In this document: positions 8,753 to 37,095 of the stretch, in pieces
Layout: each line of letters begins with the position of its first letter
Position numbering within the stretch: position 1 is the first letter of the stretch
IMG/VR virus record: IMGVR_UViG_3300033148_003473
Coordinates: 1 to 64,000 of that record
DNA: 64,000 bases
Direction: 5' to 3' (one strand)
From: a virus
The notes under the pieces: model-generated
Told to the model about the DNA's origin: nothing
Databases searched by the model: none
The model's input: the letters and a program-made list of their open reading frames with translations, nothing else
Translations under genes and position numbers: made by a program

Positions 8753-9327
8753 GTTTCAATGGCTACCTCCTTTCGCCGACCAGAACCGCCGATGGAAAAC
8801 GCGGTGTACTCGCCGGACTTGACTTTCTGCCATACCTCGATGTCGGCTATGTGATAACCCACCCACCAGCCAACGGGTACGGTGTTCGGCGGTATGCCCA
8901 GCGCCTGCTGTTTCTCGACGGTGAACACCATCGATTCGACTAGCCGCCCAACACCACGCTTTTTGTGCATTTCTGCGCCCTCGCGGAAGTAGAGCACGTG
9001 GTTGTAGGCGGCCCGTTCGAGCTCGGCGGGGGAGATAATGTCTTCCTGCTTGTCAACGACCCTGTTCCCAGCCGCGTCCTCGCTGACACTGAGCCAGCCG
9101 AACACGAGCTGCTGGTCGTCGTCGCGCTTGATAATGCCGACCTCACGGCTCCAGGCCTGTTTCTTCACAGCTGCGTTGGCCTGCCGGATAGCTGAGGCCT
9201 CGCAGTCCGACCCGCCCTCCTGTTGGCACCGGGCTAAAGCGGCGTTAGCCACGGCCACCCACTGGCGTTTCTGCTCGTCGCTGAGGCCCTGGTTGTGCTC
9301 ATCCACGTCGTCAACCGCCCATGGCAT
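8749..9327 (-). CDS. XkdF-like prohead protease
   Basis: A 192-residue protein. VFGWLSVSEDAAGNRVVDKQ, then EDIISPAELERAAYNHVLYF, EMHKKRGVGRLVESMVFT and YHIADIEVWQKVKSGEYTAF are the signature of the putative phage serine protease XkdF family. The GEYTAFSIGGSG end carries the likely active Ser; a His sits in the MHKK motif. It would cleave scaffold and coat. The first 55 residues (QWVAVANAALARCQQEGGSD) form a helical domain of the type fused to such proteases. Confidence 0.8.
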   Translation of the reverse strand: MPWAVDDVDEHNQGLSDEQKRQWVAVANAALARCQQEGGSDCEASAIRQANAAVKKQAWSREVGIIKRDDDQQLVFGWLSVSEDAAGNRVVDKQEDIISPAELERAAYNHVLYFREGAEMHKKRGVGRLVESMVFTVEKQQALGIPPNTVPVGWWVGYHIADIEVWQKVKSGEYTAFSIGGSGRRKEVAIET

Positions 9328-12315: not shown

Positions 12316-13307
12316 ACCGTCACCCCCACGGTGGTAAGCAAATCTCGCATGGTTTCAACGTCCAGCCACTCGGTGTTCGTGTCTGACCTGTAGCTCCAAT
12401 TTTCGGGTACGCGCTTCCCGCTCGTGTCCTGTCTACCCCAGTAGGGACTCACTGGCTGTATCAGGTAGTAATCGCCCATGTCGAGTGTGTGTGCGGCTTC
12501 CTCCTCAGTAATAAGCACCTCGTAGCTCCGTTCGTAGGCGCGGAGGCCCACGATTTCGTGCTCAGCGTTGGGAGCGATTGCCTCGGCCAGGTCAGCAAGC
12601 TTCATGCTCTTGAGCTGCGGTACGAATATCTCGCCACCAGTCATGTCGCCAAGCCGGTCAATGACGAACCGTACAGCATCAGGCAGCGTTATCCAGAAGC
12701 GCGTCATGCTGGGGTCGGTGATTTGAATGGAGCCCGCTTCGCGTTGCTTCGCCCAGATTTCCACCACGGAACCGCGTGAACCGAGCACGTTGCCATAACG
12801 GACAACCGACAGGTGAGCGCCCGAGTGGGTCGCGTAGCCGTTGAAGTAGACCCACATGGACTCACCAACAGCTTTAGTTTCGCCGTATAGCGTAACGGGG
12901 ACTGTAGCCTTGTCCGAGCTTAGGAGTATCGCCCGTGGGACGTGGTTCGCTATCGCCGCGTCGGCCACGTTGGTGGTGCCGTTAATGTTGGTCTTGGCAG
13001 CCTCGTCGGGGCTGTACTCACAGACCTCGATACGCTTTAGTGCTGCGGCATGAACGATAACGTCCACACCGGTGGCCGCTCTTATGACCCGTTCGCGGTC
13101 GCGCACGTCGCCTATGAGCCAACGTAGCCTTGGATCGTCGCCGAACTCACAGCGCATGTCGTACTGCTTCTTCTCGTCACGGCTGAATATACGGATTGCA
13201 TGTGGGCTGTGGTTCGCCAGAACTTCCCTGCAAAAAGCGTGACCGAAGGACCCCGTACCCCCGGTCAGAAGAATGGTTGTGTTGTTGAGCGTCACCCCGG
13301 TAGTCAC
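12312..13307 (-). CDS. pseB: PseB-like UDP-GlcNAc 4,6-dehydratase
   Basis: A 331-residue enzyme from GTG 13307 (GTGA overlap upstream). It has the NAD(P) Rossmann motif LLTGGTGSFGHAF and the catalytic set AILLSSDKATVPVTLYGETK; a Tyr rather than Met in YGxxK points to the short inverting PseB/FlaA1 type. It would convert UDP-GlcNAc to the 4-keto-6-deoxy-AltNAc form, the first step toward pseudaminic acid. IFSRDEKKQYDMR is also typical. A dehydratase for another amino sugar cannot be excluded. Confidence 0.85.
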   Translation of the reverse strand: MTTGVTLNNTTILLTGGTGSFGHAFCREVLANHSPHAIRIFSRDEKKQYDMRCEFGDDPRLRWLIGDVRDRERVIRAATGVDVIVHAAALKRIEVCEYSPDEAAKTNINGTTNVADAAIANHVPRAILLSSDKATVPVTLYGETKAVGESMWVYFNGYATHSGAHLSVVRYGNVLGSRGSVVEIWAKQREAGSIQITDPSMTRFWITLPDAVRFVIDRLGDMTGGEIFVPQLKSMKLADLAEAIAPNAEHEIVGLRAYERSYEVLITEEEAAHTLDMGDYYLIQPVSPYWGRQDTSGKRVPENWSYRSDTNTEWLDVETMRDLLTTVGVTV

Positions 13308-13552
13308 CCCTTCTCGTTCTGTTTCCACCCCAGTCCTGCCAAATCCAATTTCCCTCGCTGCGCCACCTCCTGAAACACGGGTAGCAGCTCGGTCATGTCG
13401 AGGTCCAGTGGTCTACCGTGAATTACGCCAAAAGCTAGAGCTGCCCTGTAGAGCGCGTCGCCCGGATTGTCCTCGCTGAGCACAGTTTCGCGAAACGTAA
13501 CTGTGGCCGCCTCGAACTCCTCTGCAGCCTTGAGCACGTCGTGGTAGCTCAC
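13304..13552 (-). CDS. Small acidic protein in sugar cluster, unknown
   Basis: An 82-residue mostly helical protein between the GNAT and PseB-like genes, coupled at both ends (GTGA start, GTGA at its stop). It starts MSYHDVLKAAEEFEAATVTF and ends GWKQNEKG; the final codons double as the AAGGGGTGA ribosome site for pseB. It may be an accessory to the sugar enzymes or a phage-specific filler gene. No family recognised. Confidence 0.6.
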   Translation of the reverse strand: MSYHDVLKAAEEFEAATVTFRETVLSEDNPGDALYRAALAFGVIHGRPLDLDMTELLPVFQEVAQRGKLDLAGLGWKQNEKG

Positions 13553-14079
13553 GCTTCCACCTCCACCTTGAGCTCCTGCCAGTCAGCACGATTAAACGAG
13601 AACCACAGCGACGGCCAGAACTCCCCCGCCCAGTATTTCCGCTTGGGCAACACCGTCGTGTAAGCGTTGTAGCGGTCCGCCATGCGTTGCCAGAAGTCGA
13701 TAGCGGGGTTCGACGCATAGCACTCACCGTACACGGTCTCCAGCCCGAGATAGTCGAACGCCTGTTCAAGGATTAGTTCGACCACCTGTGCTCCAAGCCC
13801 CTGCCCACGCAGGTCGGGCCGCACATTCAGCGCAATCTCGGCAGTGCGGTTTTCCCACTGGATACCGACGAGTGAAGCGTGCGCCACGAACTCTCCGGCT
13901 TCCAATACAGCCCACGAACGGCGGTTGGAGTTCCTGTCGCAGATAACACGCTCGTACCAGTCGCGTTGCATTTCTTCAGTGAGGTAGAACGGTGTTCGCC
14001 AGGGGGCTAAATTCTCGTTGCGCCACTGACGGATTTGCTCAGCATACTCGGCAGTGAGTGGGGCGAGCGTGAGTGTCAT
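13549..14079 (-). CDS. GNAT N-acetyltransferase (PseH / SpsD-like)
   Basis: A 176-residue protein from ATG 14079 (ATGA overlap). The start LTAEYAEQIRQWRNENLAPW plus YLTEEMQRDWYERVICDRNS is the pattern of sugar-nucleotide GNATs such as PseH, and the acetyl-CoA loop is VRPDLRGQGLGAQVVELILE. It would acetylate the 4-amino group made by the aminotransferase. The tail GEFWPSLWFSF is unusual. Substrate is inferred from neighbours. Confidence 0.8.
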   Translation of the reverse strand: MTLTLAPLTAEYAEQIRQWRNENLAPWRTPFYLTEEMQRDWYERVICDRNSNRRSWAVLEAGEFVAHASLVGIQWENRTAEIALNVRPDLRGQGLGAQVVELILEQAFDYLGLETVYGECYASNPAIDFWQRMADRYNAYTTVLPKRKYWAGEFWPSLWFSFNRADWQELKVEVEA

Positions 14080-14279
14080 AATGTGGTCGCCTTGCCTATT
14101 GCCCATAGATACTCGTATATCTGCTTATGGAACCTCTCGCCCAGTTGTCTATCGTCAGGCTTGCCTATCTTCTCCCATGTCTGGCGGGTCAAAATCAAAT
14201 CAACGGTCTGCGTACTCCCGCTTGGCGATACCGATATGCTAATAGTATCGCTCACCCCAACAAGCACCCCTTTCAGCAT
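14076..14279 (-). CDS. Small protein in sugar cluster, unknown
   Basis: A 67-residue protein overlapping the deacetylase end (7 nt) and the GNAT start (ATGA). The first half is beta-type (ISISVSPSGSTQTVDLILTR), the second helical (RFHKQIYEYLWAIGKA). A small DNA- or protein-binding fold is possible. No family recognised; tight coupling suggests it is real. Confidence 0.55.
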   Translation of the reverse strand: MLKGVLVGVSDTISISVSPSGSTQTVDLILTRQTWEKIGKPDDRQLGERFHKQIYEYLWAIGKATTL

Positions 14280-14935
14280 ACCTCCCGCACCGTCTCGAAC
14301 GCCTCAGCACATTCAACCCCGGCCACCGAACCCCAGTAACGGTGACGGGCGCAGATGGCCTCCATGCTTCGCGGGTGTGGGAAGTCGCGTAGTTCGCTCT
14401 CGTAGCAGCTAAGCGCCTCCAGTTTGGTCTGCTCATAATCGCCAATATCAACGAAGTGGTTCGGTCTGAACGGTCTCAGGCCCCATTCCGTACTACTGGG
14501 TACCTCGTAGGCGTAAATCGCCTTCACGTTACTGCTGTGCGGCCTACAGGCTATCAGTGTGGCCTCGTGTACGCGGCGGTGGTCCTGGTTCAGGTCGGCG
14601 TAGGAGTGGGTGTAGACGGTGTGGGGGTTGAAGTTTTCGAGCATGAACTCAACATGTTTAGCAATGTCCAGCAACGCAACTTGGTCAAGGCGCTGGTCAG
14701 GTTCATTGGCCTGTCTGTAGTCTGTGAAGCCCAGCACCCCTACTGCACGCTCAAGCGCGTTCATACGCTCTATTTGCGCGAATTCTCTACCTAACGCATT
14801 GCCCCCAAAGCGCGAAGCCACGCCCCTTGAAAGCGTCATAAGGTAGACCGTATCACCCTCAGCCACATGCCTCGCGATAGTGCCACCCATGAAGCTCTCG
14901 TCATCGCAGTGTGCCGCTACGATGAGGATGTTCAT
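14273..14935 (-). CDS. LmbE / PIG-L family deacetylase
   Basis: A 220-residue zinc hydrolase. The metal motif AAHCDDESFMGGTIARH (A-H-x-D-D-E) is at residues 8-24, HSYADLNQDHRRVHEATLIA carries the second HxxDH-type site. The family removes N-acetyl groups from amino sugars. In this cluster it could unmask an amine for re-acylation by the LpxD-like enzyme. A Cys replaces the usual Pro in AHPDDE; the relic copy at 15099-15182 retains Pro. Confidence 0.8.
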   Translation of the reverse strand: MNILIVAAHCDDESFMGGTIARHVAEGDTVYLMTLSRGVASRFGGNALGREFAQIERMNALERAVGVLGFTDYRQANEPDQRLDQVALLDIAKHVEFMLENFNPHTVYTHSYADLNQDHRRVHEATLIACRPHSSNVKAIYAYEVPSSTEWGLRPFRPNHFVDIGDYEQTKLEALSCYESELRDFPHPRSMEAICARHRYWGSVAGVECAEAFETVREVC

Positions 14936-15102
14936 GTCCAGTAGTCCATTTCCGTCAGCCGTCCAACAGTGTAACCAGCAACATACACAGCAAACACAAA
15001 GAACAACGCAAGCCAGAACTCAACAGTCATCCACGTATACCCCAACCAACCCAAACCCAGCCCCGTCAGGCCGCCAATAATGCTTGAGATTATAGTCCTC
15101 AC
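14932..15102 (-). CDS. 56-residue membrane protein
   Basis: GTG start at 15102 behind AAGGGGTGA; the TGA overlaps the deacetylase ATG (ATGA). The first ~45 residues hold two hydrophobic segments, one Gly-rich (IISSIIGGLTGLGLGWLGYT) and one aromatic (EFWLALFFVFAVYVAGYTVG). A two-pass small membrane protein placed in the sugar cluster. Too short for family assignment. Confidence 0.6.
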   Translation of the reverse strand: MRTIISSIIGGLTGLGLGWLGYTWMTVEFWLALFFVFAVYVAGYTVGRLTEMDYWT

Positions 15103-15182
15103 CCCAGCTCACCCCTTCTCGAAATGCTCCCACCCATGAAGCTCTCATCGTCTGGGTGTGCTGCTATGACGAGGACGTTCAT
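15099..15182 (-). pseudogene. Relic of a second LmbE gene fused to the tail of a second NeuB gene
   Basis: From ATG 15182 (ATGA overlap with the upstream stop) the frame reads MNVLVIAAHPDDESFMGG, nearly the same as the intact deacetylase start (MNILIVAAHCDDESFMGG), then passes into GGGAGCATTTCGAGAAGGGGTGA. That DNA equals the last codons of the NeuB-like gene (E-H-F-E-K-G-stop) in another frame. The frame stops after 27 residues. This is a deletion scar joining the 5' end of one gene to the 3' end of another, left from a tandem copy. Confidence 0.8.
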
Positions 15183-15667
15183 GGCTTGCGATCTTTAAGA
15201 TCTTCGTAGACCATGGGCTCTACATCGGCACGCCAACCTAGTGCTGCACGCAGGTCTATCCACATGCCCTCAGGAATCTTGATGGAATATTTGTTATTCC
15301 ACACATCATAAGCGCCAAGCTTGGGTATATCTATATCCACTACTTTGCCGTCAAATATGCCAACTTGATAGTCGTCTCGGCGAATGCGGTCCAGTTTATT
15401 ATTTTCACAATCCCCTCGAAGGCCTATCCTGATTTCATTGACCTTCGCCCTAGCGAGATAAATCGGGGCTTCTTTGAGCCATTCATCAAGCTCGATGCCC
15501 ACTTTCGATGTTCCTGATGCTGCTTCAGTTTGGCGCGCCTCGGCCTTTTCTAGTCGCGCTTGCGCCTTGCGGTAACTCGCCTCCATGCGATTGCTCATAA
15601 GCCACCCCGCAATGCATGAGACCATTAACGTAGTTCCTATGCCCCACAGAAAACTGGGCCAATCCAT
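15179..15667 (-). CDS. Membrane-anchored protein with coiled coil, unknown
   Basis: A 162-residue protein. Residues 5-25 form one membrane helix (FLWGIGTTLMVSCIAGWLMS), followed by a charged coiled coil (SYRKAQARLEKAEARQTEAA) and a soluble domain ending MWIDLRAALGWRADVEPM. Base composition is more AT-rich than the flanking sugar genes (for example at 15280-15400), suggesting separate origin. It lies between the NeuB gene and the LmbE relic. Role unknown. Confidence 0.6.
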   Translation of the reverse strand: MDWPSFLWGIGTTLMVSCIAGWLMSNRMEASYRKAQARLEKAEARQTEAASGTSKVGIELDEWLKEAPIYLARAKVNEIRIGLRGDCENNKLDRIRRDDYQVGIFDGKVVDIDIPKLGAYDVWNNKYSIKIPEGMWIDLRAALGWRADVEPMVYEDLKDRKP

Positions 15668-15672
15668 TCAAT

Positions 15673-16635
15673 TCACCCCTTTTCAAAATGCTCCCAGAGA
15701 ATCGCCTCGTCAGGCGCGTAGTTTCGTGGTGCCTGCCTACCGTAAAGTGCGTGCATGTCGCGGGGCTCGATTCCGCCGTGCCCCGTCCGCTTACAGCCAA
15801 GGTTGGCCCCAGTTAATCTCTCACCCACAGTAATGCGCTTGCTCGCAACCACGTACCGTCTTGCCACGCGCAGTAATTCTTGCTCCTCCGCAAGCGGCCA
15901 TTTCTTGCCGTCGCCGAGCAGGCGTTCGGTCTCGCGAATGTCGGCAACCAATTGCCTTAATTCGTCGGGCTCACAGGCAAAGTGGTGGTCGGGGCCCTCC
16001 ATGGTCTTATCCAGTGTGAAGTGCTTTTCAATAACGGTTGCACCCAAGCCAACCGCTATCATGCAGGCAAGGTTCCCGAGCGTGTGGTCGGAGTAGCCTA
16101 TCCGAAAGTTCGGGAAGGCCCGTTGAAGCGTCGTGATTGCCCGCAGATTCGCGTTCTGGGCCGGATACGCCATGACACAGTGCAGGAGCGTCACGTCGCA
16201 GTTGCGTAGGCGTTTGACGCTTGTGCGTATCTCGTCGAGCGTACACCCGCCTGTGGAGAGAAATACCGGCCAGCCTGTCTCGTTGATAGCGTCAATCAGC
16301 GGCAGGTTGGTCAGGTTCGAGCTCGAGACCTTGAGTTGCGGCGGATTGAGGTCCAGTACGTCGTCGAGTAGAGGAACGCTCACTACCGTCGCAAAGGCGT
16401 CGAGGCCCAAGGCATTGGCGTGGGCGTAAAGCATTTCATAGTCCTCATGGTCGAGTTCACCACGACGGAAGGTGGCGTAATACTCTGAGTCGGGTGTACA
16501 GATTCCACTAGCTACCACGTACTGGAACTTCACTGCGTCGGCTCCGGCCTCATGTGCAGCGTCAATCAGCTCAGTTGCAAGGCCCGTGTCGCCCTGGTGG
16601 TTTAGGCCGATTTCGGCGACAATGTAGGTGGTCAT
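15673..16635 (-). CDS. Nonulosonic acid synthase (NeuB / PseI / SpsE family)
   Basis: A 320-residue enzyme that condenses a 6-carbon amino sugar with phosphoenolpyruvate. Signatures: IVAEIGLNHQGDTGLATELI, AGADAVKFQYVV, PQLKVSSSNLTNLPLIDAI, RIGYSDHTLGN and ATVIEKHFTLDKTMEGPDHH. The C-terminal SAF (antifreeze-like) domain starts near YVVASKRITVGERLTGANL. With the PseB, PseC and GNAT neighbours, the product would be pseudaminic or a related acid. Sub-specificity cannot be read by eye. Confidence 0.85.
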   Translation of the reverse strand: MTTYIVAEIGLNHQGDTGLATELIDAAHEAGADAVKFQYVVASGICTPDSEYYATFRRGELDHEDYEMLYAHANALGLDAFATVVSVPLLDDVLDLNPPQLKVSSSNLTNLPLIDAINETGWPVFLSTGGCTLDEIRTSVKRLRNCDVTLLHCVMAYPAQNANLRAITTLQRAFPNFRIGYSDHTLGNLACMIAVGLGATVIEKHFTLDKTMEGPDHHFACEPDELRQLVADIRETERLLGDGKKWPLAEEQELLRVARRYVVASKRITVGERLTGANLGCKRTGHGGIEPRDMHALYGRQAPRNYAPDEAILWEHFEKG

Positions 16636-16865
16636 GGTCTTTTACTCTGCACGTAGTCGGTTATGTCCTGCCACCAAACAAGGTTGTACCGTATAGGCCC
16701 CATTTTGAAAGTGAGTTCTCTGGCTCGCTCGCTTTCAACGGCTTCCTGTTGCATTTTCCGAAGCCAATCTAGCGGGTGTATGTTGATTGTGGCCGTGCGC
16801 GTTTCCGCGCCTCCTGCGTATGGATTGTACTGCTCATAGCGCACAAAGTAATGCCGCTCAGCCAC
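16632..16865 (-). CDS. Small protein in sugar cluster, unknown
   Basis: A 77-residue protein from GTG 16865, 8 nt after AAGGGG (a GTG at 16874 overlapping the upstream stop is the alternative). It is aromatic and charged (YFVRYEQYNPYAGGAETRTA ... IRYNLVWWQDITDYVQSKRP). Its stop overlaps the NeuB start. No family recognised. Confidence 0.55.
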   Translation of the reverse strand: MAERHYFVRYEQYNPYAGGAETRTATINIHPLDWLRKMQQEAVESERARELTFKMGPIRYNLVWWQDITDYVQSKRP

Positions 16866-16870
16866 CCAGT

Positions 16871-17599
16871 TCACCCCTTTCCAATCTCTTTCGCCGGATC
16901 CCCCACCACCGTCACCCCTGCCGGTACGTCCCGTGTCACCACTGCCCCAGCCCCCACGGTTGCACGTTCACCTACCCGTACATGGTTTAGCACCACTGCA
17001 TTGGCGTACACAGTCGCATTATCTTCGAGCACACATGAGCCACAGAGTACCACACCCGGGGCAATGAAGCAGTTCCTACCCACCTGCACGTTGTGGCCCA
17101 CTGTGACTCGGTTGCCGATTTTGGTGCCGTCGCCGATACGGGTATCCATGAGGTTGCCGCGCATGACCACGGTGTAGGGGCCAAGGTCCACGTCCTCGCC
17201 AATGACTACCCCGCCAAGGTGATAGACTTCGACGTATTCGGGACCGTCCTGTGCGTAAGATAGCCCTGTTGCCCCCAATACGGCCTCGCGAGCAATATTT
17301 GCACTACGAGCCACGTTGAGCGTTGGTGGTGGTGGACCGCTTGGGAAGAGTTTGTGTAGCAGTAGCGCAAAGGTCAGCCGTGGGTTACTGCTCGGGATTA
17401 TGGCCCGATAATCGTGTGGTTCGCCCATATCGCAGACCACGATACCGCGTTCGGGGATATTACCCGTCTCGACGAAGCAGAGCGTGAACGTATCGGAATC
17501 CTCAGGGGTACTCACACCGAGCACAGGGTGACGGTCAAAACCGTGGTAGTTGTCGGTCAAGTCGCGCAGGTCCATGGGGTTCTGTGCAGGTATCACCAT
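16871..17599 (-). CDS. Left-handed beta-helix acyltransferase (LpxD / hexapeptide type)
   Basis: A 242-residue protein from ATG 17599, overlapping the upstream stop. Residues 110-235 are hexapeptide repeats (VVIGEDVDLGPYTVVMRG, IGDGTKIGNRVTVGHNVQVG, RATVGAGAVVTRDVPAGVTV); the His in TVGHNVQVG matches the LpxD catalytic position. It would transfer an acyl group to an amino sugar. A different N-terminal domain (residues 1-100) may bind the nucleotide sugar. In this cluster it may re-acylate a sugar freed by the LmbE-like enzyme. Confidence 0.8.
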   Translation of the reverse strand: MVIPAQNPMDLRDLTDNYHGFDRHPVLGVSTPEDSDTFTLCFVETGNIPERGIVVCDMGEPHDYRAIIPSSNPRLTFALLLHKLFPSGPPPPTLNVARSANIAREAVLGATGLSYAQDGPEYVEVYHLGGVVIGEDVDLGPYTVVMRGNLMDTRIGDGTKIGNRVTVGHNVQVGRNCFIAPGVVLCGSCVLEDNATVYANAVVLNHVRVGERATVGAGAVVTRDVPAGVTVVGDPAKEIGKG

Positions 17600-18159
17600 G
17601 CACCGTCCACCCGGGCGAAGCGTATTGTGCCCACATGTTCCTCGTTGTCGTAGATGCTGGACTCGGTAAACTTGGGACTGCCACAGCGCCCCTCGTAGCA
17701 GAGGTGACATTCACTGCCGTCAAGGGGACGGTGTAAGAACAGGTTGGTCAGTGCCCACTTACTCGGGCCATAGGTCGCGATATGCAGGTGCTTATTCGCG
17801 GCCACCACCGTCTCTATCGGGTTACACTGCCCGCGCCCGGTTATCGCCCACCAATCACCCCAATCGTGCTCAACCCGTACCTCGCCCTCGCGGCAGGGAT
17901 TCCTGCCCCGTATCTCGCCTGGACGTACCACGAGCCAACCCTTACGTTTCTTGCCGTCAGTCTCAATATCGAACTTCACGTTCCAGAACGGCGGTTCGTC
18001 CTCGTCTACAATCAATGTAAGTGGGCCGCGAGCCCAGTGCCGAAACTCCATATAGAGCGAGTCGAAATCGCCAAAGAGCTGTACTACCGCGTCGTACATG
18101 TCAGTGCCGTGGAGATAGTCTCTTTGGCCCTTGTAGCGGAGGCGGAGGGGGATTCTCAT
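17593..18159 (-). CDS. Protein of unknown function in sugar cluster
   Basis: A 188-residue protein. It is rich in Trp, Arg and Asp (EHDWGDWWAITGRGQCNPIE) and has a Cys/Gly segment (GSECHLCYEGRCGSPKF) that may bind metal. It overlaps the acyltransferase start by 7 nt. It has no clear transferase motif. It could be a sugar-modifying or a structural protein; no family recognised. Confidence 0.55.
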   Translation of the reverse strand: MRIPLRLRYKGQRDYLHGTDMYDAVVQLFGDFDSLYMEFRHWARGPLTLIVDEDEPPFWNVKFDIETDGKKRKGWLVVRPGEIRGRNPCREGEVRVEHDWGDWWAITGRGQCNPIETVVAANKHLHIATYGPSKWALTNLFLHRPLDGSECHLCYEGRCGSPKFTESSIYDNEEHVGTIRFARVDGAW

Positions 18160-18341
18160 GGTTTCCCCTCCTCTTCAATCTGTTCTCTTGCAAACGCAAT
18201 CAGGCACTTCCAACTACATACCTCAAACCGCAAGACGTCTCCAAACTCCACCACGTCGTCCCTACGCTCCACACACAGCCGTACATGATACGGGTGGTCG
18301 AAATACTTGCCGCAATGGTCACAACGGAAAGCCTCACTCAC
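18156..18341 (-). CDS. Zinc-finger protein
   Basis: A 61-residue protein with one CxxC pair (FRCDHCGKYFDHPYHVRLC) and a second Cys pair in FEVCSWKCLIAFAREQIEEE. This CxxC...CxxxC pattern resembles the small zinc-binding protein at 30106-30288 (CSLECLLKFIEKLMEVG), showing that this phage carries several related copies. Function unknown. Confidence 0.65.
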   Translation of the reverse strand: MSEAFRCDHCGKYFDHPYHVRLCVERRDDVVEFGDVLRFEVCSWKCLIAFAREQIEEEGKP

Positions 18342-18553
18342 CCCAACAACACCCCATCAGCGCCGCCCCAGTCCCGTCGCAGGTCGGCGTCAGTTATCTG
18401 TCCTACCCACCCTGTGCCATTACAGCGCAGACATGCTACGACCTCATTGGTTTCTATGTGGCGCAGTTGCCCTGCGCCGCAACATGCCGGACAGAGATAT
18501 GCTGTCGCCGTTGTTGGGCTCACAATGTACGGCGCATAATCTTCGCGTTTCAC
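18338..18553 (-). CDS. DnaJ-type zinc-finger small protein
   Basis: A 71-residue protein with CPACCGAGQLRHIETNEVVA and CLRCNGTGWVGQ, the CxxCxGxG repeats of DnaJ cysteine-rich domains. No J-domain is present. Such short proteins are common in phages and may bind RNA or partner proteins. The stop overlaps the next gene. Confidence 0.65.
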   Translation of the reverse strand: MKREDYAPYIVSPTTATAYLCPACCGAGQLRHIETNEVVACLRCNGTGWVGQITDADLRRDWGGADGVLLG

Positions 18554-18568
18554 CCCAACTTCACCCCT

Positions 18569-19297
18569 TTACATATTGGTCGGTCCCGCGTGTTGTCGTA
18601 TCAATCGGTTGCGCTGTAGCACCAGCGGGTTCCGGTCCAGATAGCCCACAATCTCTTCTGCCGTGGCCCAGTACCCCAACTCGGCCACGAGCTTGCGTAC
18701 AACTTCGAGGTCTTCGGGTTCGTCCACACACAGCCGATAGTCGGGCCTACACAGTGCCTGTGGCGCCCACACGTTGCGAACATTGAAATCAATAGCGTGC
18801 TGGTAAAGGTAGCGCGTTGGATGCTCGCGACAATCCTGCGTCAGGCTTGGTACGCTATCGAGTGCGCGGAGCGTCGAGTAGGCGATAACCTCCGTGTCGA
18901 AGCCTCTTGGGTAGGTGCGCGGGTAGGCGTTCGTGGCGAGCGTTACACCCTCGTCGAAGGCCCGTACTACCCGGTCCACTGTCTCAGGGTCAATGAGCGG
19001 GCAGTCGCCCGTGATACGCACCACCGTGTCTGCTTCGAGTTCGTTGGCCGCATGCACGTACTCACCCAGTACGTTGCGGTCTACTCCTGTCGCGAAGCAG
19101 GGATAGCCCCAGAGCCTTACCAGCGTGGCGAGTTCGGTGTCTTCCTTCGGCACGGTGACGGCTATCTCGTCGAGCGTGGTGCAGTGCTGGAGGCGTTCAA
19201 GTAGAAGATGTAGGAGGTAGAAGTCGCCGATTGTTGCGAGTACCTTACGCGGAAAGCGCTCGCTGCCGAGGCGAGCCTGGACTACGGCGACGTTCAT
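18569..19297 (-). CDS. Nonulosonic acid cytidylyltransferase (SpsF / PseF-like)
   Basis: A 242-residue enzyme from ATG 19297 (ATGA overlap). MNVAVVQARLGSERFPRKVL is the N-terminal nucleotide-binding motif of the SpsF/PseF/NeuA superfamily; VVRITGDCPLIDPETVDRVV and DYRLCVDEPEDLEVVRKLV are typical of the SpsF branch. It would couple the acid to CMP, giving the donor for a glycosyltransferase. Length is normal for the family. It stands next to the DUF115/GT42-like gene. Confidence 0.85.
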   Translation of the reverse strand: MNVAVVQARLGSERFPRKVLATIGDFYLLHLLLERLQHCTTLDEIAVTVPKEDTELATLVRLWGYPCFATGVDRNVLGEYVHAANELEADTVVRITGDCPLIDPETVDRVVRAFDEGVTLATNAYPRTYPRGFDTEVIAYSTLRALDSVPSLTQDCREHPTRYLYQHAIDFNVRNVWAPQALCRPDYRLCVDEPEDLEVVRKLVAELGYWATAEEIVGYLDRNPLVLQRNRLIRQHAGPTNM

Positions 19298-19488
19298 AGT
19301 TTGCGCCGCAACTTCCGGCAATCATGTTCAAGCAGCAACGCCACGATAGCCAGGGATCCTAGCATGATTCTGGACGCCCACTCGGGCTGAAGCCCTAGCA
19401 GGACCGCCACAGCGACACCGAGAGCGGCACAAACAAGCGTGATGATAGTGACCTTCACCATCGTGTGTAGTCGGTCGAATTGTTTCAT
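19294..19488 (-). CDS. Small membrane protein
   Basis: A 64-residue protein from ATG 19488 behind GGGGTG. Two hydrophobic stretches (VTIITLVCAALGVAVAVLLG and ASRIMLGSLAIVALLLE) with a basic C-terminus (CRKLRRKL). It lies between the possible glycosyltransferase and the cytidylyltransferase and might anchor them, but no direct evidence exists. Confidence 0.6.
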   Translation of the reverse strand: MKQFDRLHTMVKVTIITLVCAALGVAVAVLLGLQPEWASRIMLGSLAIVALLLEHDCRKLRRKL

Positions 19489-22112: not shown

Positions 22113-23498
22113 CTACCGTCCCTTCCAGCGTGACGGACGCTTGAGCAGTGCGTTGAGCGAGAAATCTATCTTGCCGATATTGCGTCGCCGTCCCAGCATG
22201 AGCTCGGTTAGCGCCCACACCAGTGCGTCCAGCCTGTCAGGCGAGGGGTCGCCCGGTTCCCACGAGCACAGCTGGTCCTCCAGGTCACCGAACGTGCCGA
22301 CGTGGTGTACCAGACCCTGTTCATAGAGCGCCGCTATCGGTTCGGCGCGAATTGCTTTACCACGCGAGGCCCGGACCTGCTTGTAGGCGGCCTTCGGGTC
22401 CACGGTGTGAATCGTGTGCTCTATCATGTCGCCGCCGTTGTTGACCTCACCGATAATGCGGTCTGCCTCATACTGCTCGTAGGCGTTGACGGCGCGTTTG
22501 GCCCACGCGTCGGGCTTGGCACGAACGGTCCGGTCGTCAAGTACAAAGCCGTGTAGTTCGCGCTCACCACGCGCCTTGGAATAGCCGACACCGGCCACGA
22601 CAATACCGGTCTCACTGGAGGTATCGCTGACACTGACGGCGGGGTCAATCGCCACCACGATACGTTCAAGTATTGGTGCCTCGGTGAGGCGTAGCTTGTC
22701 GAGTGTGGCCCGTTTCCAGAGTGCACCGGGGGCATCATCCAGTATCTCGCCGGTGAGCTCCTGTCTACCGAGCCGGGTACCCTCGTACTTGCGGATAATT
22801 TCTGCGAAGAATGGTGGCGCAAGGTTTGCCCTGTTCTCATAGGTGGTGCCCCGGGTGATACGCACATCCTCGGGGTTTTCGGAGCGTGCGACAAGCTCCT
22901 TGATAATCGGGATTGGCTTGGGTGTGGTGGTCACTATGACCCGGGGGTCGTCACCGAGCCGGAGTCCGAACATGAGCATGTCCCAGGTTTCCTGCGGGTA
23001 TTTCCAGGCGGCCAGTTCGTCACACCATGCAGAGTCGTGCTGGGGTCCGCGCAGCTGATTGGCCTTGTGTGAGGAGTAAATAGTGGCCACGGCACCGTTC
23101 TTCCAGGTAAGCCTGCGCTTGGAGGGCTCGTAGAGCGGCCTATCCCATGGCGGGCAGACATTCAAAAGCCCACTCTCGCCCTCAATCATGACGTCCCGGG
23201 CATCGGCGGGCGTGTCGGCCACAAGTGCAATGCGACGGGCCTTGCCGGATTCAACCCGCTGTCGAACCCATTCTGCCCCCGCTCTAGTTTTCCCGTATCC
23301 TCTCCCGGTAAGTAACAGCCAGATTCGCCACTGGCCATCCGGTGGTAGCTGCTTGGGCCGCGCCCAGAAATCCCAGTTGTACATGAGCCCCTCGGACCCA
23401 TGCGGGTCGGAGGCAGCGAGGTCATCCAGTATCAGCTTCTGTTTCTGTTCGCTCAGCGAGGCGACGTATGCGGCCAGCGAGCTCTTCCCGGTCGGCAA
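22113..23498 (-). CDS. terL: Terminase large subunit (packaging ATPase and nuclease)
   Basis: 461 residues if started at TTG 23498, 8 nt after AGAGGTGG; the reading frame is open further up inside the small subunit. Walker A is LLLTGRGYGKTRAGAEWVRQ; Walker B is near SAWCDELAAWKYP; the nuclease Asp residues lie in IVVAIDPAVS and PDRLDALVWAL. It drives DNA into procapsids through the portal and cuts concatemers. It follows the small terminase with an overlap of 77 nt. Confidence 0.92.
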   Translation of the reverse strand: MPTGKSSLAAYVASLSEQKQKLILDDLAASDPHGSEGLMYNWDFWARPKQLPPDGQWRIWLLLTGRGYGKTRAGAEWVRQRVESGKARRIALVADTPADARDVMIEGESGLLNVCPPWDRPLYEPSKRRLTWKNGAVATIYSSHKANQLRGPQHDSAWCDELAAWKYPQETWDMLMFGLRLGDDPRVIVTTTPKPIPIIKELVARSENPEDVRITRGTTYENRANLAPPFFAEIIRKYEGTRLGRQELTGEILDDAPGALWKRATLDKLRLTEAPILERIVVAIDPAVSVSDTSSETGIVVAGVGYSKARGERELHGFVLDDRTVRAKPDAWAKRAVNAYEQYEADRIIGEVNNGGDMIEHTIHTVDPKAAYKQVRASRGKAIRAEPIAALYEQGLVHHVGTFGDLEDQLCSWEPGDPSPDRLDALVWALTELMLGRRRNIGKIDFSLNALLKRPSRWKGR

Positions 23499-23889
23499 GC
23501 GTGTCCACCTCTTTGCGTTCCGTTGGTTCACCGGAGAGTAGCTGGGCCTTGTCGATAAGCGTGCCAATGGCTGTGGTCATGTGGTGAATGGCGGCCTTGT
23601 CCAGCCGCTCCCTTGAGTCCACCTCGTCGAGCATGGTACGGATTTTCTGCCAGGCAATCTCCACGAACTCTGCCTTGCGCTCTACCAACTCGTCGCTGGC
23701 CCGCTGCCAGGCGCGCTCGTTAATGGCCTGCCTGCGAGCCTCCCAGTTATCCTGCCTCGCCCAGTTCTGGAGCGTTGGTATGGACGGTTCGCGTTCGCGG
23801 CTTATCTCGGCCAAAGATTTGCCCATGCAGTAGTAGGTGAAGCAAGTTAGTCGCTCCTTATCGCTATAGGCGTATCCGGGGCCAGCCAT
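23422..23889 (-). CDS. terS: Terminase small subunit
   Basis: A 155-residue protein directly before terL. The N-terminus holds a helix-turn-helix (AYSDKERLTCFTYYCMGKSL and SIPTLQNWARQDNWEARRQA) and the middle a helical oligomer domain (LVERKAEFVEIAWQKIRTM). It recognises the packaging site and loads the large subunit. Size and position fit well. Confidence 0.85.
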   Translation of the reverse strand: MAGPGYAYSDKERLTCFTYYCMGKSLAEISREREPSIPTLQNWARQDNWEARRQAINERAWQRASDELVERKAEFVEIAWQKIRTMLDEVDSRERLDKAAIHHMTTAIGTLIDKAQLLSGEPTERKEVDTLADREELAGRIRRLAERTETEADTG

Positions 23890-24843: not shown

Positions 24844-25242
24844 CTAGTACTCGCCATTTGTCTTACTCGGGCCATCTACCTGATTCACGGTGACGGTCCA
24901 ATCAGGTGGGGTCCAATAACCATACGGCAGCTGGTTTATTTCCTCGCGGATAATGCGGCGAATATCGTCAGCGTCGAGCGGTTGCTTGCGCTCAATTATG
25001 GTGGGCTTCCCGTCGCCAGTTTCCCTGCTGTCTGGCTCATCTATCTCGGTCACTCGCAATGCACGAATCCATCCAGTGGGCACCATCAATATGCGACTCT
25101 CATCCATGATGAATAAGCTATGCTTGGTGGCGAGTTTGCCCAGTTGGTCTCTAACCTGCTTTTGTATCTCCTTGATTGGTGCGTTGAACGTCTCGCTAAT
25201 CAGCTCCATATCCGGCCCAAAGTACACAGTCACTCGTACCAC
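24844..25242 (-). CDS. Unknown protein downstream of the structured RNA
   Basis: A 132-residue protein from GTG 25242, after GGAGTGAGCC. It starts MVRVTVYFGPDMELISETFN; the middle is IIERKQPLDADDIRRIIREE and the end is aromatic (PYGYWTPPDWTVTVNQVDG). It is the first gene after the 25295-25751 RNA, which would lie in its 5' untranslated region if co-transcribed. No family recognised. Confidence 0.6.
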   Translation of the reverse strand: MVRVTVYFGPDMELISETFNAPIKEIQKQVRDQLGKLATKHSLFIMDESRILMVPTGWIRALRVTEIDEPDSRETGDGKPTIIERKQPLDADDIRRIIREEINQLPYGYWTPPDWTVTVNQVDGPSKTNGEY

Positions 25243-25294
25243 TGTTGGCTCACTCCTCAGTAAAAGGTAAAGGTAGAAGTGGGTTGGTGTTGGT

Positions 25295-25751
25295 GGACAC
25301 ACAGGGAGCTAACCCCGATTACAGGCCGCGCCTCACGGGACGGGCATAGGTCGTTCGCGGCTAGCTCCACGCCTCGCAGTATATCGGGAGCATTATCGCC
25401 GCGACTGGGGAGCGGGGCCATAATGACTGTTGAGCGCCCCTACGACTCCTAACCCCCACGGCTTTCCCGGCTCCCTGTGTGTCCAGTTGGGCTACATCCA
25501 GCCATGGATACCTCGTTGTCATAGTTGGCCCGCTCCGCCGCCCCTACGTAAGAAGCCCACATATGAACGCAGGCCTTCGAGTTGGCAGAGCGGGAATGAT
25601 TGTCTCCGAGTCCCACGGGCCCACATTCCCTCCAGCCCGTCATTCGCCCTGTCGTTGCTCCACCGCTCGGAGAATGAGTGTGGCCCCACCCGACTGCCGC
25701 AGCTGGTTGGCCAATTGCCTGAGGGTTTTCTGCCGTCATGATAGTGGGGCC
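25295..25751 (-). ncRNA. Large structured non-coding RNA candidate
   Basis: No convincing gene fits the 510 nt between the methyltransferase stop and GTG 25242. It holds many long perfect helices: 25295-25309 with 25470-25484 (15 bp); 25314-25319 with 25383-25388; 25325-25330 with 25356-25361; 25391-25396 with 25420-25425; 25530-25539 with 25584-25593 (10 bp); 25682-25689 with 25744-25751 (8 bp); 25603-25610 with 25666-25673 (8 bp); 25615-25620 with 25635-25640. 25592-25598 with 25624-25630 crosses one of these as a pseudoknot. One helix has U:G on the minus strand but C:A on the plus strand, favouring minus. Class unknown. Confidence 0.7.
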
Positions 25752-25755
25752 GAGT

Positions 25756-26547
25756 CTAAATTGGTAACGCTATTTGCACAGCAGCAAGCCGTCGCCGGAT
25801 AATATCACAATATTCTGCGCTTATCTCGAACCCAACTGCGTTACGTCCGTGCTGAAGTGCCACTTTCAGTGTTGTCCCACTTCCCGCAAAAGGGTCGAGC
25901 ACAGTGTCGCCCTCATTGCTCCATGAAAGAATATGGTCGCGAGCTAGGGCTTCGGGGAATATGGCGGGGTGCTCAAATGCAAATCGGTCTTTAGTGGAGT
26001 GCATGTAGCCAACGTTATACGTCCATACATTTGCTCGATTTCGGTCCTCTTTGCCCGTATCGTACTGCATGGGTACCGTCGTTCCATCAGATTGCCTGTT
26101 CCGGCTATTCTTGTTAGGGTTACGGTTTGCAATTTTTGTGGGAACCCTAGTGATATGCGCCGCCTTGGGTTTACCCCTAGACAATACAAACATATACTCG
26201 AACACCTGGTTGTAGCGATTCACCTCGGAAAACGGGAAGGCGTTCTTCCGGTATATCATTGTGTCGTGTAGCAAGAAGCCTGCCTCCATGAAGCCTAATG
26301 CTTGCCGAAAACTGGAGCCTGTTTCGCTCCCGTTTATCACTGCATCTCCCACTATCCACACCACGACCCCGCCGTCCTTCGTCACTCGGTACAGCTCACT
26401 GCTCACCCCGTCGAAGTCGAACGAGAAGCCATGATAGTCTCTCAGATTGTCATATGGTGGGCTGGTCACGGTCAGGTCTATCGACTCTGTGGGTACTTTT
26501 GCCATGCCCTCCACGCAGTCTTGATTGTAAAGCTGAACGTAAGGCAT
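25756..26547 (-). CDS. DNA amino-methyltransferase (beta-class, N4/N6)
   Basis: A 263-residue enzyme from ATG 26547 behind AGGAGGTACCC. Catalytic motif IV TSPPYDNLRDYHGFSF is near residue 33 and the AdoMet site DPFAGSGTTLKVALQHGRNA is near the end, the IV-before-I order of beta-class enzymes. It would methylate A or C at a short DNA site, perhaps protecting phage DNA. It has no partner nuclease beside it. It lies just upstream of the structured RNA. Confidence 0.88.
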   Translation of the reverse strand: MPYVQLYNQDCVEGMAKVPTESIDLTVTSPPYDNLRDYHGFSFDFDGVSSELYRVTKDGGVVVWIVGDAVINGSETGSSFRQALGFMEAGFLLHDTMIYRKNAFPFSEVNRYNQVFEYMFVLSRGKPKAAHITRVPTKIANRNPNKNSRNRQSDGTTVPMQYDTGKEDRNRANVWTYNVGYMHSTKDRFAFEHPAIFPEALARDHILSWSNEGDTVLDPFAGSGTTLKVALQHGRNAVGFEISAEYCDIIRRRLAAVQIALPI

Positions 26548-26746
26548 GGGTACCTCCTGCTGGGTGCTCGCCCTCCCCTTCCGATTCATTGAGCTAAGGT
26601 GGCAAACGTTAATCGCCCTCCCCCGCCCCACGCTACACCGCCGAGGCGGAGTAGAGGGTATGCTCTATGCGGGGCAGACGGTTCATCGGGCGGGGTTGCT
26701 CTAGTCTTTTTGCTACCCTGTCGTAGCGAACGGGGCATCACCCCCC

Positions 26747-33539: not shown

Positions 33540-33728
33540 TCATCGGTATATCGCTACGACCATCCACAACACAGCACTCACCCCAAGCACCACGTCAGCT
33601 ATGCTAATGGTCGCCTTCTCAACGTCGCCCTTCTGCCAATGCCGCCACATGCGCCATGTCGTCATACCCACCTCGGAGAGCGTCAGTAGAATCAGCACCC
33701 AGCCATAAATTGCGAAGAAGTTGGTCAT
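33540..33728 (-). CDS. Small membrane protein
   Basis: A 62-residue protein from ATG 33728, overlapping the methyltransferase stop (ATGA). Two membrane segments, FFAIYGWVLILLTLSEVGM and SIADVVLGVSAVLWMVVAIY, with a basic loop (RMWRHWQKGDVEK). Function unknown. Confidence 0.6.
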   Translation of the reverse strand: MTNFFAIYGWVLILLTLSEVGMTTWRMWRHWQKGDVEKATISIADVVLGVSAVLWMVVAIYR

Positions 33729-35884
33729 GAACCCACCTCCCATACGCGGTTAAACAGTGGGCAGTCGTCCTCGATGCGCCGTCGTGACATATCTGTGTAC
33801 TCGGGGTTTAGCTCGATGCCGATGAACGCCCTCCCCTTCCGTGTTGCTACAAGGCCCGTTGTGCCTGCGCCAGCGAAGGGGTCGAGTACGATGCTCTTGC
33901 CACTGCCGTCGTTGCCTTCGCAGGTGCAGGTGGGTTGCCAGCTGGTGGTCTCTCGTGTTGTCTGCCAGCCGCGTTCAGGTGGAGCTGCCTTGCCCATGCG
34001 TTGGTGTGCGAGGCTCTTCGTGCGCCCCGCGTCGTCGCGTTCGCTCAACTCTGTGCGCTCTACTACCCGCGCCCACGGTGCCCCACAATGCGGGCAAGCT
34101 TTCGGGCTTGCTCCGGCGAGGATGCAGGGTTCAATGAGCTTGTCGGGAAAAACTGCGAAGTGACTTCCGGGGAATGGCTGCGTCGCCACGGTCCAGACAT
34201 CCCGCTTGTTGCGGCCCTTGGCGCGCTGCGTACTAACATGGACGCTACTACCGTCGCCATGTGAGGAATTGGACACCCCTCGAGGTTGATTCGTGTATCT
34301 CGATGAACGGAAATCTGTACGGTCCATTGAGGTCTGCCACGGCTCCCGTATCGCGTCAGCGTCGTAATAGTACCGTTGACTCTTGGCCAGCAGGAAGATG
34401 AACTCATGCGCCCGCGTGGGCCTGTCTGTTACGCTTTCCGGGAGCGGGTTCGGTTTGGAGTTATGGGTGAGTACGCCGCTTGCCAGCGCGAACAAATGTG
34501 GCCCGTCGGCTACCCCGATATCCCAAAACTTGCGAGCACGGCTCCTGCCGATAGCAACAATTTCTGTGTCGGGCTTCGCATTAAAGTGGTTACTCGGGTC
34601 AAACCGAATTTCCCCACGGAACGCTGGGTAGGTCTTATCGCCAATGTTGGCCGTTGAGAGATTTATCCGCAGTTGGATTCCGAGCCGAGCAGCAATCGTT
34701 CGCAAGTCTTCAGCCCACGCATAGTTCCTGGTGAAGCCCAGCCGCCAGCGGTTGTTGTGCGGTTCATGGTGGCCGTCGCCTTCGAGATAACCCTGCAGGA
34801 GTGCCCGCAGGAACCCGTTGCTTCTTTGCCATGCGGCGGTCGTCAGGTGTTTGGTCTTTGCCGAGGACCCGCTCACATAGGTGTCGATGATGCCTTCGAG
34901 CACCTTACCCGTGAGGTTGATGCTCATGGCCTTGCCGCCCGTGTGGTACGTATTGCAGGTGCCATGATAGGCCCGGGCAATTTTCGCCAGCCGCTCGGCG
35001 CGTCGCGTTTCCTTGACATGCGCGGCTACTTGAAGCTTGCTCCGAGATTTACTACCCTCAGCGATATACATGCCGACGAACCAACCAATGTCAGTATCGT
35101 CCAACCCCCCTGGGGACTCTGGTTGGTCGGCTTTGGGTATGATTGTGGACTGTATCACGTCACCCGCCTGTAGTTCGTCGGCTCTGAGCAAACCCCGCTG
35201 TGTCGGCCACCTGTGGGCCGGCGTGCAGCCAATGCGTTCGCCGCTGCGTAGCGTAATGGCAATAGGATTATCGGGCCTCGGCGTCTCCGACCAGCCCAAT
35301 ACCTGCGTCCACTTTTCGCCGTTCCAGAGCTGTACGGTTGAGGGGTCAAGGCGAACCATGTCCTTGATCGTCATGGGCATAACGCCTTTTTGCGTCTTGG
35401 CATAGACCTTCGTGCCGCCCGAAAGGCACCAAACTATGTCCGAGCGCAACCACCAGCCATCGGCACGGAGGGCGAAGGCCACGGCCCACGGGATGCCCAC
35501 AAGGTCTTTAGGTTTGAGCGCGTCAACCCGTGTCGGCCGGCCGTTCGCCTGTACCTCCACTACCTTACCCAGCTCAGACGTTACCCCGGCCGGCCCCTTG
35601 CCGCTCCCGTTGTAGGAGTCGCCGAGGTTGCACCAACAGGTTCCATCCGGCCGAAGCACCCGCCGCACCTCGCGGAATATCTCGACCAGCTTCTGCACGT
35701 ACTCCTCGGGCGTGGGTTCAAGGCCGAGTTGCCCGTCTACCCCATAATCGCGAAGCGACCAGTAAGGGGGTGAGGTCACACACGTCTGCACACAGCCGTC
35801 AGGCATGTCGCGTAGCACGTTGAGAGCGTCACCCGTCTCCACATGCCATGTGCGCCTGCCCTCCAGTACGTCGGTGATGCTCAC
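33725..35884 (-). CDS. DNA amino-methyltransferase (beta class) interrupted by an intein
   Basis: A 719-residue precursor from GTG 35884, which overlaps the C5-methyltransferase TGA. TSPPYWSLRDYGVDGQLGLE (motif IV) is near residue 38 and SIVLDPFAGAGTTGLVATRK (motif I) near the end. At SDIVW|CLSGG the frame enters a 323-residue intein and leaves at LTHN|SKPNPLPES; the joined enzyme would read DIVWSKPNPLPES, as in unsplit relatives, about 396 residues. It includes a zinc-like CPHCGAPW segment. It methylates A or C in DNA. Confidence 0.9.
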   Translation of the reverse strand: MSITDVLEGRRTWHVETGDALNVLRDMPDGCVQTCVTSPPYWSLRDYGVDGQLGLEPTPEEYVQKLVEIFREVRRVLRPDGTCWCNLGDSYNGSGKGPAGVTSELGKVVEVQANGRPTRVDALKPKDLVGIPWAVAFALRADGWWLRSDIVWCLSGGTKVYAKTQKGVMPMTIKDMVRLDPSTVQLWNGEKWTQVLGWSETPRPDNPIAITLRSGERIGCTPAHRWPTQRGLLRADELQAGDVIQSTIIPKADQPESPGGLDDTDIGWFVGMYIAEGSKSRSKLQVAAHVKETRRAERLAKIARAYHGTCNTYHTGGKAMSINLTGKVLEGIIDTYVSGSSAKTKHLTTAAWQRSNGFLRALLQGYLEGDGHHEPHNNRWRLGFTRNYAWAEDLRTIAARLGIQLRINLSTANIGDKTYPAFRGEIRFDPSNHFNAKPDTEIVAIGRSRARKFWDIGVADGPHLFALASGVLTHNSKPNPLPESVTDRPTRAHEFIFLLAKSQRYYYDADAIREPWQTSMDRTDFRSSRYTNQPRGVSNSSHGDGSSVHVSTQRAKGRNKRDVWTVATQPFPGSHFAVFPDKLIEPCILAGASPKACPHCGAPWARVVERTELSERDDAGRTKSLAHQRMGKAAPPERGWQTTRETTSWQPTCTCEGNDGSGKSIVLDPFAGAGTTGLVATRKGRAFIGIELNPEYTDMSRRRIEDDCPLFNRVWEVGS
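34460..35428 (-). other. Intein with LAGLIDADG endonuclease inside the methyltransferase
   Basis: The 323-residue intein begins with Cys (CLSGGTKVYAKTQKG, block A), has block B GERIGCTPAHRWPT with TxxH, two LAGLIDADG dodecapeptides (IGWFVGMYIAEG and LLQGYLEGDG), block F (FWDIGVADGPHLFALASG) and ends VLTHN, followed by Ser at +1. All splicing residues appear intact, as do the acidic catalytic residues of the endonuclease (E291 in MYIAEG and D385 in LEGDG, numbered from ATG 35929). Confidence 0.92.
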
Positions 35885-37095
35885 ACTGCCACCCCGCTCT
35901 CCACGGCCATGATTCTCCGCCCTATCCATTCAATGACGGGCACCGTGACGGCGTTGCCCATTGCTCTGTAGCGGGGGCTGTCGGGGGTGTCCTCTCCGTC
36001 GATGGCTGTGAAGTCATCCGGAAAGCCCTGCAGCCGCTCACACTCCCGTGGCGTGAGCCGACGAACGCCCACACATGGTTGACGTTGCCCACCCTGCGCA
36101 GTGTTAAGCGTCGGGCATATTCCGTCGCTGTTCATACGGTGAACACCGTCAGGGCTTCGCGGTTCCCACAAGAGAGACGGCACCTGGTTCGTCCCGCTCG
36201 GTGCCCCACGCAGTGTCGGGCTCTGCTCCTCGCGGTAGCCGAGACTCCCGGCCTTTGCGGATTGGCCAGCAGAAAAGGCGGCCACCAACTGTCCGTCGGC
36301 GGCCTCCTCTGCGTTCGGCCCCTTGTATGCACGCTCCTTGAGTGTTCCTATTGCTTCGGCTACAAAGGTTTCTGTTTCGCTGTCCATTCGAGTGCCCGTC
36401 GTAACGCATTTGGCAAGGCCCTGCCTCGCTTTCTCGCGCGGCGCAGGATTCCCCGGCAGGCTCTCGGGCTCAAATAGTACCTTGGCGGGATAGGCCCGGT
36501 TTCGAGAGTGTCCGACAATGAACACACGGCAGCGTCTTTGGGCCACTCCGAAGTATTGAGAGTCAAATATCCGATAGGCCCACCAGTAGCCGAGCTCTCC
36601 CAGCGTAGCTGTGACGGTCTCAAGGTCGCTTGTCTCTTCCACGTCCCACTGACCCTCCACACTATCTGCCCATTTGCGAGCCTCTTCTTCCGAACCGAAA
36701 TCGCGGGTTGGTATCTCGAACGGCGGCGGTTCAATGGGTGTCCAAGATGAAAGTAACCCAGGGACGTTCTCGATGAGAACCCAACGGGGAGCGAGTTCAC
36801 CAACGATGCGAGCGAACTCGTGGAATAGTCCGGATCGCTCTCCAGCCAGTCCAGCACGGTTTCCAGCCACCGAGAGGTCCTGGCAGGGGAAACCTCCAGA
36901 GATAAGGTCAACTGATGCGAGTTCTGCTTTGCCAACATCTCTCACGTCCTTGAAGTGTTGTACCTCAGGCCAATGTGTCGTGAGCACCCTCTGGTTGAAT
37001 CTGTCTATCTCGACCTGCCAGACAGGTTCCATGCCCGCACGTTCCAGGCCGAGGTCAAAGCCTCCAACACCGGCAAACAGCGACCCAAACCTCAC
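35881..37095 (-). CDS. C5-cytosine DNA methyltransferase
   Basis: A 404-residue enzyme with full motifs: SLFAGVGGFDLGLERAGMEP (I), SGGFPCQDLSVAGNRAGLAG (IV, catalytic Cys), VLIENVPGLLSSW (VI), VAQRRCRVFIVGHSRNR (VIII) and RYRAMGNAVTVPVIEWIGRR (X). It methylates cytosine at the 5 position, perhaps against host restriction. It directly precedes the intein-bearing methyltransferase, so two modification enzymes of different chemistry are co-transcribed. Confidence 0.92.
   Translation of the reverse strand: MRFGSLFAGVGGFDLGLERAGMEPVWQVEIDRFNQRVLTTHWPEVQHFKDVRDVGKAELASVDLISGGFPCQDLSVAGNRAGLAGERSGLFHEFARIVGELAPRWVLIENVPGLLSSWTPIEPPPFEIPTRDFGSEEEARKWADSVEGQWDVEETSDLETVTATLGELGYWWAYRIFDSQYFGVAQRRCRVFIVGHSRNRAYPAKVLFEPESLPGNPAPREKARQGLAKCVTTGTRMDSETETFVAEAIGTLKERAYKGPNAEEAADGQLVAAFSAGQSAKAGSLGYREEQSPTLRGAPSGTNQVPSLLWEPRSPDGVHRMNSDGICPTLNTAQGGQRQPCVGVRRLTPRECERLQGFPDDFTAIDGEDTPDSPRYRAMGNAVTVPVIEWIGRRIMAVESGVAV

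Follow-up and report, generated by a model that had tools for sequence, protein, structure and literature searches.

What occupies the gene-free interval in the late operon of this phage? The window, a 64,000-nucleotide stretch of viral DNA, contains a gap on the minus strand (25243 to 25755) that an earlier note, made from the sequence alone, had described as a large RNA packed with helices and including a pseudoknot. The gap is bounded by the stop, at 25756, of an N6_N4 DNA methyltransferase gene that lies upstream of the RNA (25756 to 26631, minus strand; Pfam PF01555, E 4e-46), and by the GTG start, at 25242, of a downstream gene of no known family (24844 to 25242, minus strand), with GAGGAG immediately 5′ of the GTG. 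A search of viral contigs for relatives of this downstream product found none. A protein-coding gap is ruled out, as the ORFs within it, of up to 107 residues, had no match in a Pfam search. The interval is thus gene-free, as the earlier note had it.

The sole evolutionarily supported RNA of the gap is a hairpin of 66 nucleotides, at 25529 to 25594 on the minus strand, which is the strand of the late genes. It matched Rfam family RF03075, the DUF3800-VIII RNA, over the full length of the model (positions 1 to 64 of 64) with 56.5 bits for a cut-off of 40.2 (E 6.4e-8), and our own covariance model, R1, scored it at 66.8 bits. We are therefore practically certain that the hairpin is a DUF3800-VIII RNA. 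The gap RNA, which had not been recognized as belonging to a known class, is an added member of a catalogued family and not a novel giant RNA. Among 4227 Rfam families, no other matched in the surrounding 800 bases, including at a permissive threshold. The 65.5-kb record has no DUF3800 gene; a neighboring DUF3800 does not define membership of RF03075, however, because DUF3800 is also absent from 34 of the 35 viral records that carry the RNA.

Alignment to the Rfam consensus and to the homologues revealed the features of the family, namely, a two-helix hairpin with an asymmetric inner loop and the conserved CGAAG and GUAG sequences, and the strand logic is also in common. The outer helix, P1, is formed by 25584 to 25594 (5′ arm) and 25529 to 25539 (3′ arm), and all 11 of its pairs change on both sides among homologues. 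It corresponds to the 10-bp helix of the earlier note, whose remark that the U-G pair between 25530 to 25539 and 25584 to 25593 can form on the minus strand only was correct. In the inner part of P1, 25579 to 25581 pair with 25542 to 25544, and the three pairs likewise change on both sides. In the tip helix, P2, the 5′ arm (25567 to 25575) comes after the conserved CGAAG and pairs with the 3′ arm (25554 to 25562), beyond which lies the asymmetric loop that ends in GUAG; 91.9% of cells are paired across 45 distinct sequences. The window hairpin departs from the family in its tip, CAUAUG where CCUACG is usual, and as an orphan located in the late operon of a phage.

Does the hairpin act as RNA or as DNA? 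Approximately 50 homologues were gathered using DNA patterns and Rfam searches, 37 of which were aligned, and the model built from those 37 sequences then served for the realignment of 48 matches (45 distinct sequences). Covariation among these relatives was strong. Eighteen of the 23 pairs change on both sides, and compensatory cells numbered 207, versus 75.8 in column shuffles and 40 to 59 when the partners were slid, in an alignment that was fitted to the structure and is hence biased towards it. When counted independently, on a plain alignment, G-U combinations numbered 217 versus 16 for A-C, and 115 versus 15 once the columns richest in G-U were removed. This strong asymmetry indicates that the hairpin very probably acts as RNA on the minus strand, and it rules out a DNA hairpin, a cruciform or a pac site as explanations of the 66-nucleotide element. 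The proposal of a structured minus-strand RNA in the late operon thus holds for the hairpin by virtue of covariation, but not for the remainder of the 457 nucleotides to which it had been applied.

All the helices named for the rest of the gap are present in the sequence. The perfect pairs are 25294 to 25309 with 25470 to 25485 (15/16 bp) and 25529 to 25539 with 25584 to 25594 (10 to 11 bp), in addition to two of 8 bp, 25682 to 25689 with 25744 to 25751 and 25603 to 25610 with 25666 to 25673. Nevertheless, except for the 15/16-bp repeat their frequency is that of chance: we counted 4 perfect stems of 8 bp or more for 1.8 expected (10% of dinucleotide shuffles) and 10 of 7 bp or more for 6.4 expected (11% of shuffles), and the 15/16-bp repeat is the sole stem longer than in all 300 dinucleotide shuffles. 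Energy folding of the minus strand supported the hairpin, with a z-score of −4.85 and none of 200 shuffles as good, but not the gap as a whole (z −1.61, with 6 of 100 shuffles as good; −1.29 for the plus strand). The other parts gave −0.29 (25603 to 25751), −1.00 (25603 to 25673), −1.66 (25682 to 25751), and +0.45 (25325 to 25469). The proposed pseudoknot (25592 to 25598 with 25624 to 25630) is ruled out as a 7-bp match of the chance kind that shares three bases (25592 to 25594) with the conserved helix P1 of the hairpin and hence competes with it. We found no homologues of the gap flanks in phage records, nor among the approximately 50 homologous loci. The conserved part is thus limited to 66 nucleotides, and the helices outside the hairpin are the product of chance or, in one case, possibly of a DNA insertion.

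That case is the perfect 16-bp inverted repeat, whose left arm (TGGACACACAGGGAGC, 25294 to 25309) and right arm (GCTCCCTGTGTGTCCA, 25470 to 25485) delimit a segment of 192 bp end to end. We tentatively consider that this segment might be a small inserted MITE-like DNA element rather than an RNA domain. Its arms contain no G-U pair, its ends are TG...CA, and its interior is no more structured than shuffled sequences. In addition, GTTGG direct repeats abut the left arm (25289 to 25293) and the right arm (25486 to 25490), the local chance of identical 5-mers flanking both arms being 0.0014. The segment thus combines terminal inverted repeats with a possible target-site duplication, as a MITE-like element does. 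In contrast, neither further copies nor a matching full-length transposon were found in the window, viral contigs, and plasmids: there was no second copy in the window and none in plasmids, and in viral contigs the arm pattern occurred without its inverted partner.

The relatives of the hairpin in bacterial chromosomes provide an indication of its possible partner. The DUF3800-VIII RNA is carried by 12 of 398 genomes drawn evenly from the phylum of genome G004. At 7 of the 11 new loci the RNA and a DUF3800 gene converge, with the gene located just beyond the 3′ end of the RNA; one of the seven DUF3800 genes is interrupted by a transposase-like gene. Another new locus is a prophage with a terminase gene downstream, and the remaining three have no assigned context. 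Together with four earlier loci, this brings the DUF3800-paired copies to 11. The four DUF3800 proteins that we tested all match the PADLOC candidate PDC-M04A (E 6e-20 to 2e-25). DUF3800 has been described as adopting an RNase H fold in which the active site is rearranged, and as being associated with putative noncoding RNAs (PMC10910872). It is a candidate defense protein, for which RNA binding is putative. The letters of the conserved loop are identical in the phage and chromosomal contexts. No solved structure related by sequence to the DUF3800 partner was found, and an AlphaFold model based on three sequences was discarded (mean pLDDT 43). In L296 the RNA-paired DUF3800 is interrupted, at 341 to 2121 relative to the motif, by a gene resembling an IS605-type TnpB. 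The Clostridia genome G565 (L164 to L166) has four A+T-rich motif copies, some of them in long repeated segments more than 90% identical, and one pair of copies is in opposite orientation, 0.6 kb apart.

The phage copies are arranged differently from these DUF3800-paired copies. They are on the late strand and are mostly bare hairpins between genes. In the window, the gene for the large terminase subunit (22113 to 23567, minus strand; Pfam PF03237, E 1.3e-30, and PF17289) shares the strand of the hairpin and begins 2.0 kb downstream of it. Using phage lineages grouped by eye, we found the large-subunit gene 1.0 to 4.4 kb downstream of the RNA in about 10 of 18 lineages, or in 8 of 16 if the Rhizobium-type lineages are conservatively merged. 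These comprise the window phage, the GpA group (L141, L147, and L155), L144 to L146, the Rhizobium-phage type L148/L176, L151 and L182, as well as L153, L154, L156 to L158, and the SPbeta-like group, and the terminases belong to different families (Terminase_6, Terminase_3, GpA, and TerL_ATPase). If 10% of positions qualified, the binomial tail would be 2e-6 for 10 of 18 and 6e-5 for 8 of 16; with 20% qualifying, it would be 9e-4 and 7e-3, respectively. The preferred position near packaging genes is real. Other phage copies adjoin portal genes (L174 and L184), follow endolysin, holin or spanin genes (L152, L162, L173, and L175), or are found among tail genes (L143).

Some of these phage loci have additional features. 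In L148, a NusG-family protein (8158 to 8781, plus strand; PF02357, E 4.8e-11) is encoded approximately 110 nucleotides upstream of the hairpin (8891 to 8957), a neighbor that might point to a link with the control of transcription elongation. The Rhizobium-type phages L148 and L151, which are otherwise different, share 52 nucleotides directly downstream of the hairpin with 96% identity. This stretch has small inverted repeats and a terminator-like stem, and it is possibly part of a longer form of the RNA. In Bacillus phage Goe14 (L074, 4690 to 6061), annotated skipping-rope and DUF3800-VIII RNAs enclose approximately 1.2 kb of noncoding DNA upstream of the terminase gene, which could contain a large structured RNA. 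Lastly, L147 has a match to the Rfam RAGATH-5 ribozyme (64.6 bits) at 6370 to 6422, on the opposite strand and about 2.8 kb from the hairpin.

What might a phage do with such an RNA? Our overall proposal, put forward with less than even confidence, is that a temperate phage produces this 66-nucleotide DUF3800-VIII RNA from its late strand and that the RNA acts via the partner of the chromosomal copies, most plausibly as a decoy or mimic for DUF3800. The late transcript would include the RNA. We found no convincing promoter adjoining the hairpin in the window, where a single 9-of-12 match was detected at 25767 to 25738 (0.7 expected); a good promoter is present beside some chromosomal copies (L140). 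Once folded, the RNA would work in trans by binding the partner of the DUF3800-paired copies. Acting as a mimic or decoy, it would occupy the putative DUF3800 defense protein of the host, or keep DUF3800 inactive, during infection.

Among the conceivable roles, that of decoy or mimic appears the most likely because the phages carry the RNA without the DUF3800 protein, and it is proposed by analogy with the pseudo-ToxI RNA of phage PhiTE, which suppresses ToxIN by mimicry (PMC3475682). The likeness is in the proposed mode of action, with a phage noncoding RNA similar to the one that partners a host defense protein. In contrast, the PhiTE ToxI is a tandem-repeat pseudoknot that works with ToxN, whereas the RNA of the window is a single hairpin linked to the DUF3800 family, and we found no tandem repeat of a ToxI-type unit in the gap. 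The decoy step deserves more caution than the overall proposal. That the orphan phage RNA has a host partner to which it binds, possibly acting as a decoy for DUF3800, is an idea that we favor only hesitantly, and we would grant about as little, or slightly less, to the claim that the RNA specifically is a decoy or mimic for DUF3800. It is rather doubtful that DUF3800 and its convergent RNA gene form an RNA-dependent phage-defense module, which the lone late-operon RNA of many unrelated phages would disarm. Furthermore, a standing DUF3800 target cannot be general, because the B. subtilis control genome has the RNA and no DUF3800, and DUF3800 is similarly missing from 7 of the 9 RNA-carrying genomes of the family and class draws (G040, G108, G221, G224, G250, G426, and G565). 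Nor does the decoy model explain why the RNA tends to lie at the packaging end of the late operon.

The phage RNA might instead regulate the late genes in cis, as a leader element, a processing site or a terminator-like element, or take part in packaging the phage DNA, and in phages it would then be unconnected with DUF3800. Although itself unlikely, such a role, in cis or linked to packaging, is nearly as likely as that of decoy or mimic. It agrees with the location of the RNA on the terminase strand, at a limited distance upstream of terminases of different families. In SPbeta-like phages, the RNA is found in the region that precedes the terminase gene, and a review locates potential pac sites of such phages around yonR/yonP (PMC8270828). 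In the GpA-type and L153 phages, the RNA ends close before the start of the terminase small subunit, and many copies are followed by T-tracts. Nevertheless, chromosomal copies are paired with DUF3800 and not with a terminase, and other phage copies come after lysis genes or among tail genes. We also searched the 80 nearest relatives of the window terminase (46 to 61% identity) with the RNA model. None of them carries the DUF3800-VIII RNA, including the 49 for which 2.2 kb or more of upstream DNA was available. This argues against an obligatory packaging RNA, and the hairpin is probably an accessory RNA of the late operon. The suggestion of a packaging RNA in the earlier note remains compatible with the location of the hairpin, but only in such an accessory capacity. 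The packaging RNA (pRNA) of phi29 is similarly a folded phage RNA near packaging genes; in contrast, the gap has no Rfam match to a packaging RNA, and the relatives of the window terminase lack the hairpin.

Two further explanations appear improbable. The first is that the approximately 457 nucleotides form a multidomain RNA in which the hairpin is one domain and the 16-bp helix closes another. Indeed, the minimum-energy fold contains both. In at least one further phage locus, L176, inverted repeats close segments on either side of the hairpin, and in SPbeta-like phages a long noncoding stretch precedes the hairpin. However, z-scores are near zero outside the hairpin, the flanks have no homologue among the phage records and the approximately 50 loci, and many copies are bare hairpins between genes. 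Large ornate RNAs of the GOLLD, ROOL or OLE types are ruled out because only RF03075 matches and there is no fold signal outside the hairpin. GOLLD and ROOL are also structured noncoding RNAs from phages (PMC12286853), but the conserved part here is 66 nucleotides. The second, equally improbable, is that the RNA is a trigger, the host DUF3800 sensing the phage late RNA as it competes with a host copy that restrains the protein; the common conserved loop and the orphan phage copies would fit this as they fit the decoy, yet selection should remove such an RNA, which is kept in the SPbeta-like records found and in many lineages.

The two contexts of the RNA give RF03075, a family without known function, a testable pair of protein and RNA, with a phage counterpart that can be tested as well. 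What is possibly new is the distinction between lone phage copies in late operons, often just before the terminase gene, and chromosomal copies convergent with DUF3800. A search of literature other than the paper that defined the family found no association of the DUF3800-VIII RNA with terminase, and part of this two-context pattern may already have been reported. Two other features of the window are of separate interest. Between the portal and head genes of the late operon, at 11203 to 19321 on the minus strand, is an apparent pathway for a nonulosonic (sialic-acid-like) sugar, with genes for a DegT aminotransferase, a Polysacc_synt_2 dehydratase, a GNAT protein, a PIG-L deacetylase, a NeuB synthase, a hexapeptide transferase, and a cytidylyltransferase. 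Finally, a DNA methyltransferase of 734 residues (33725 to 35929, minus strand) appears to harbor an intein with a LAGLIDADG-like domain, as judged from weak Pfam matches.
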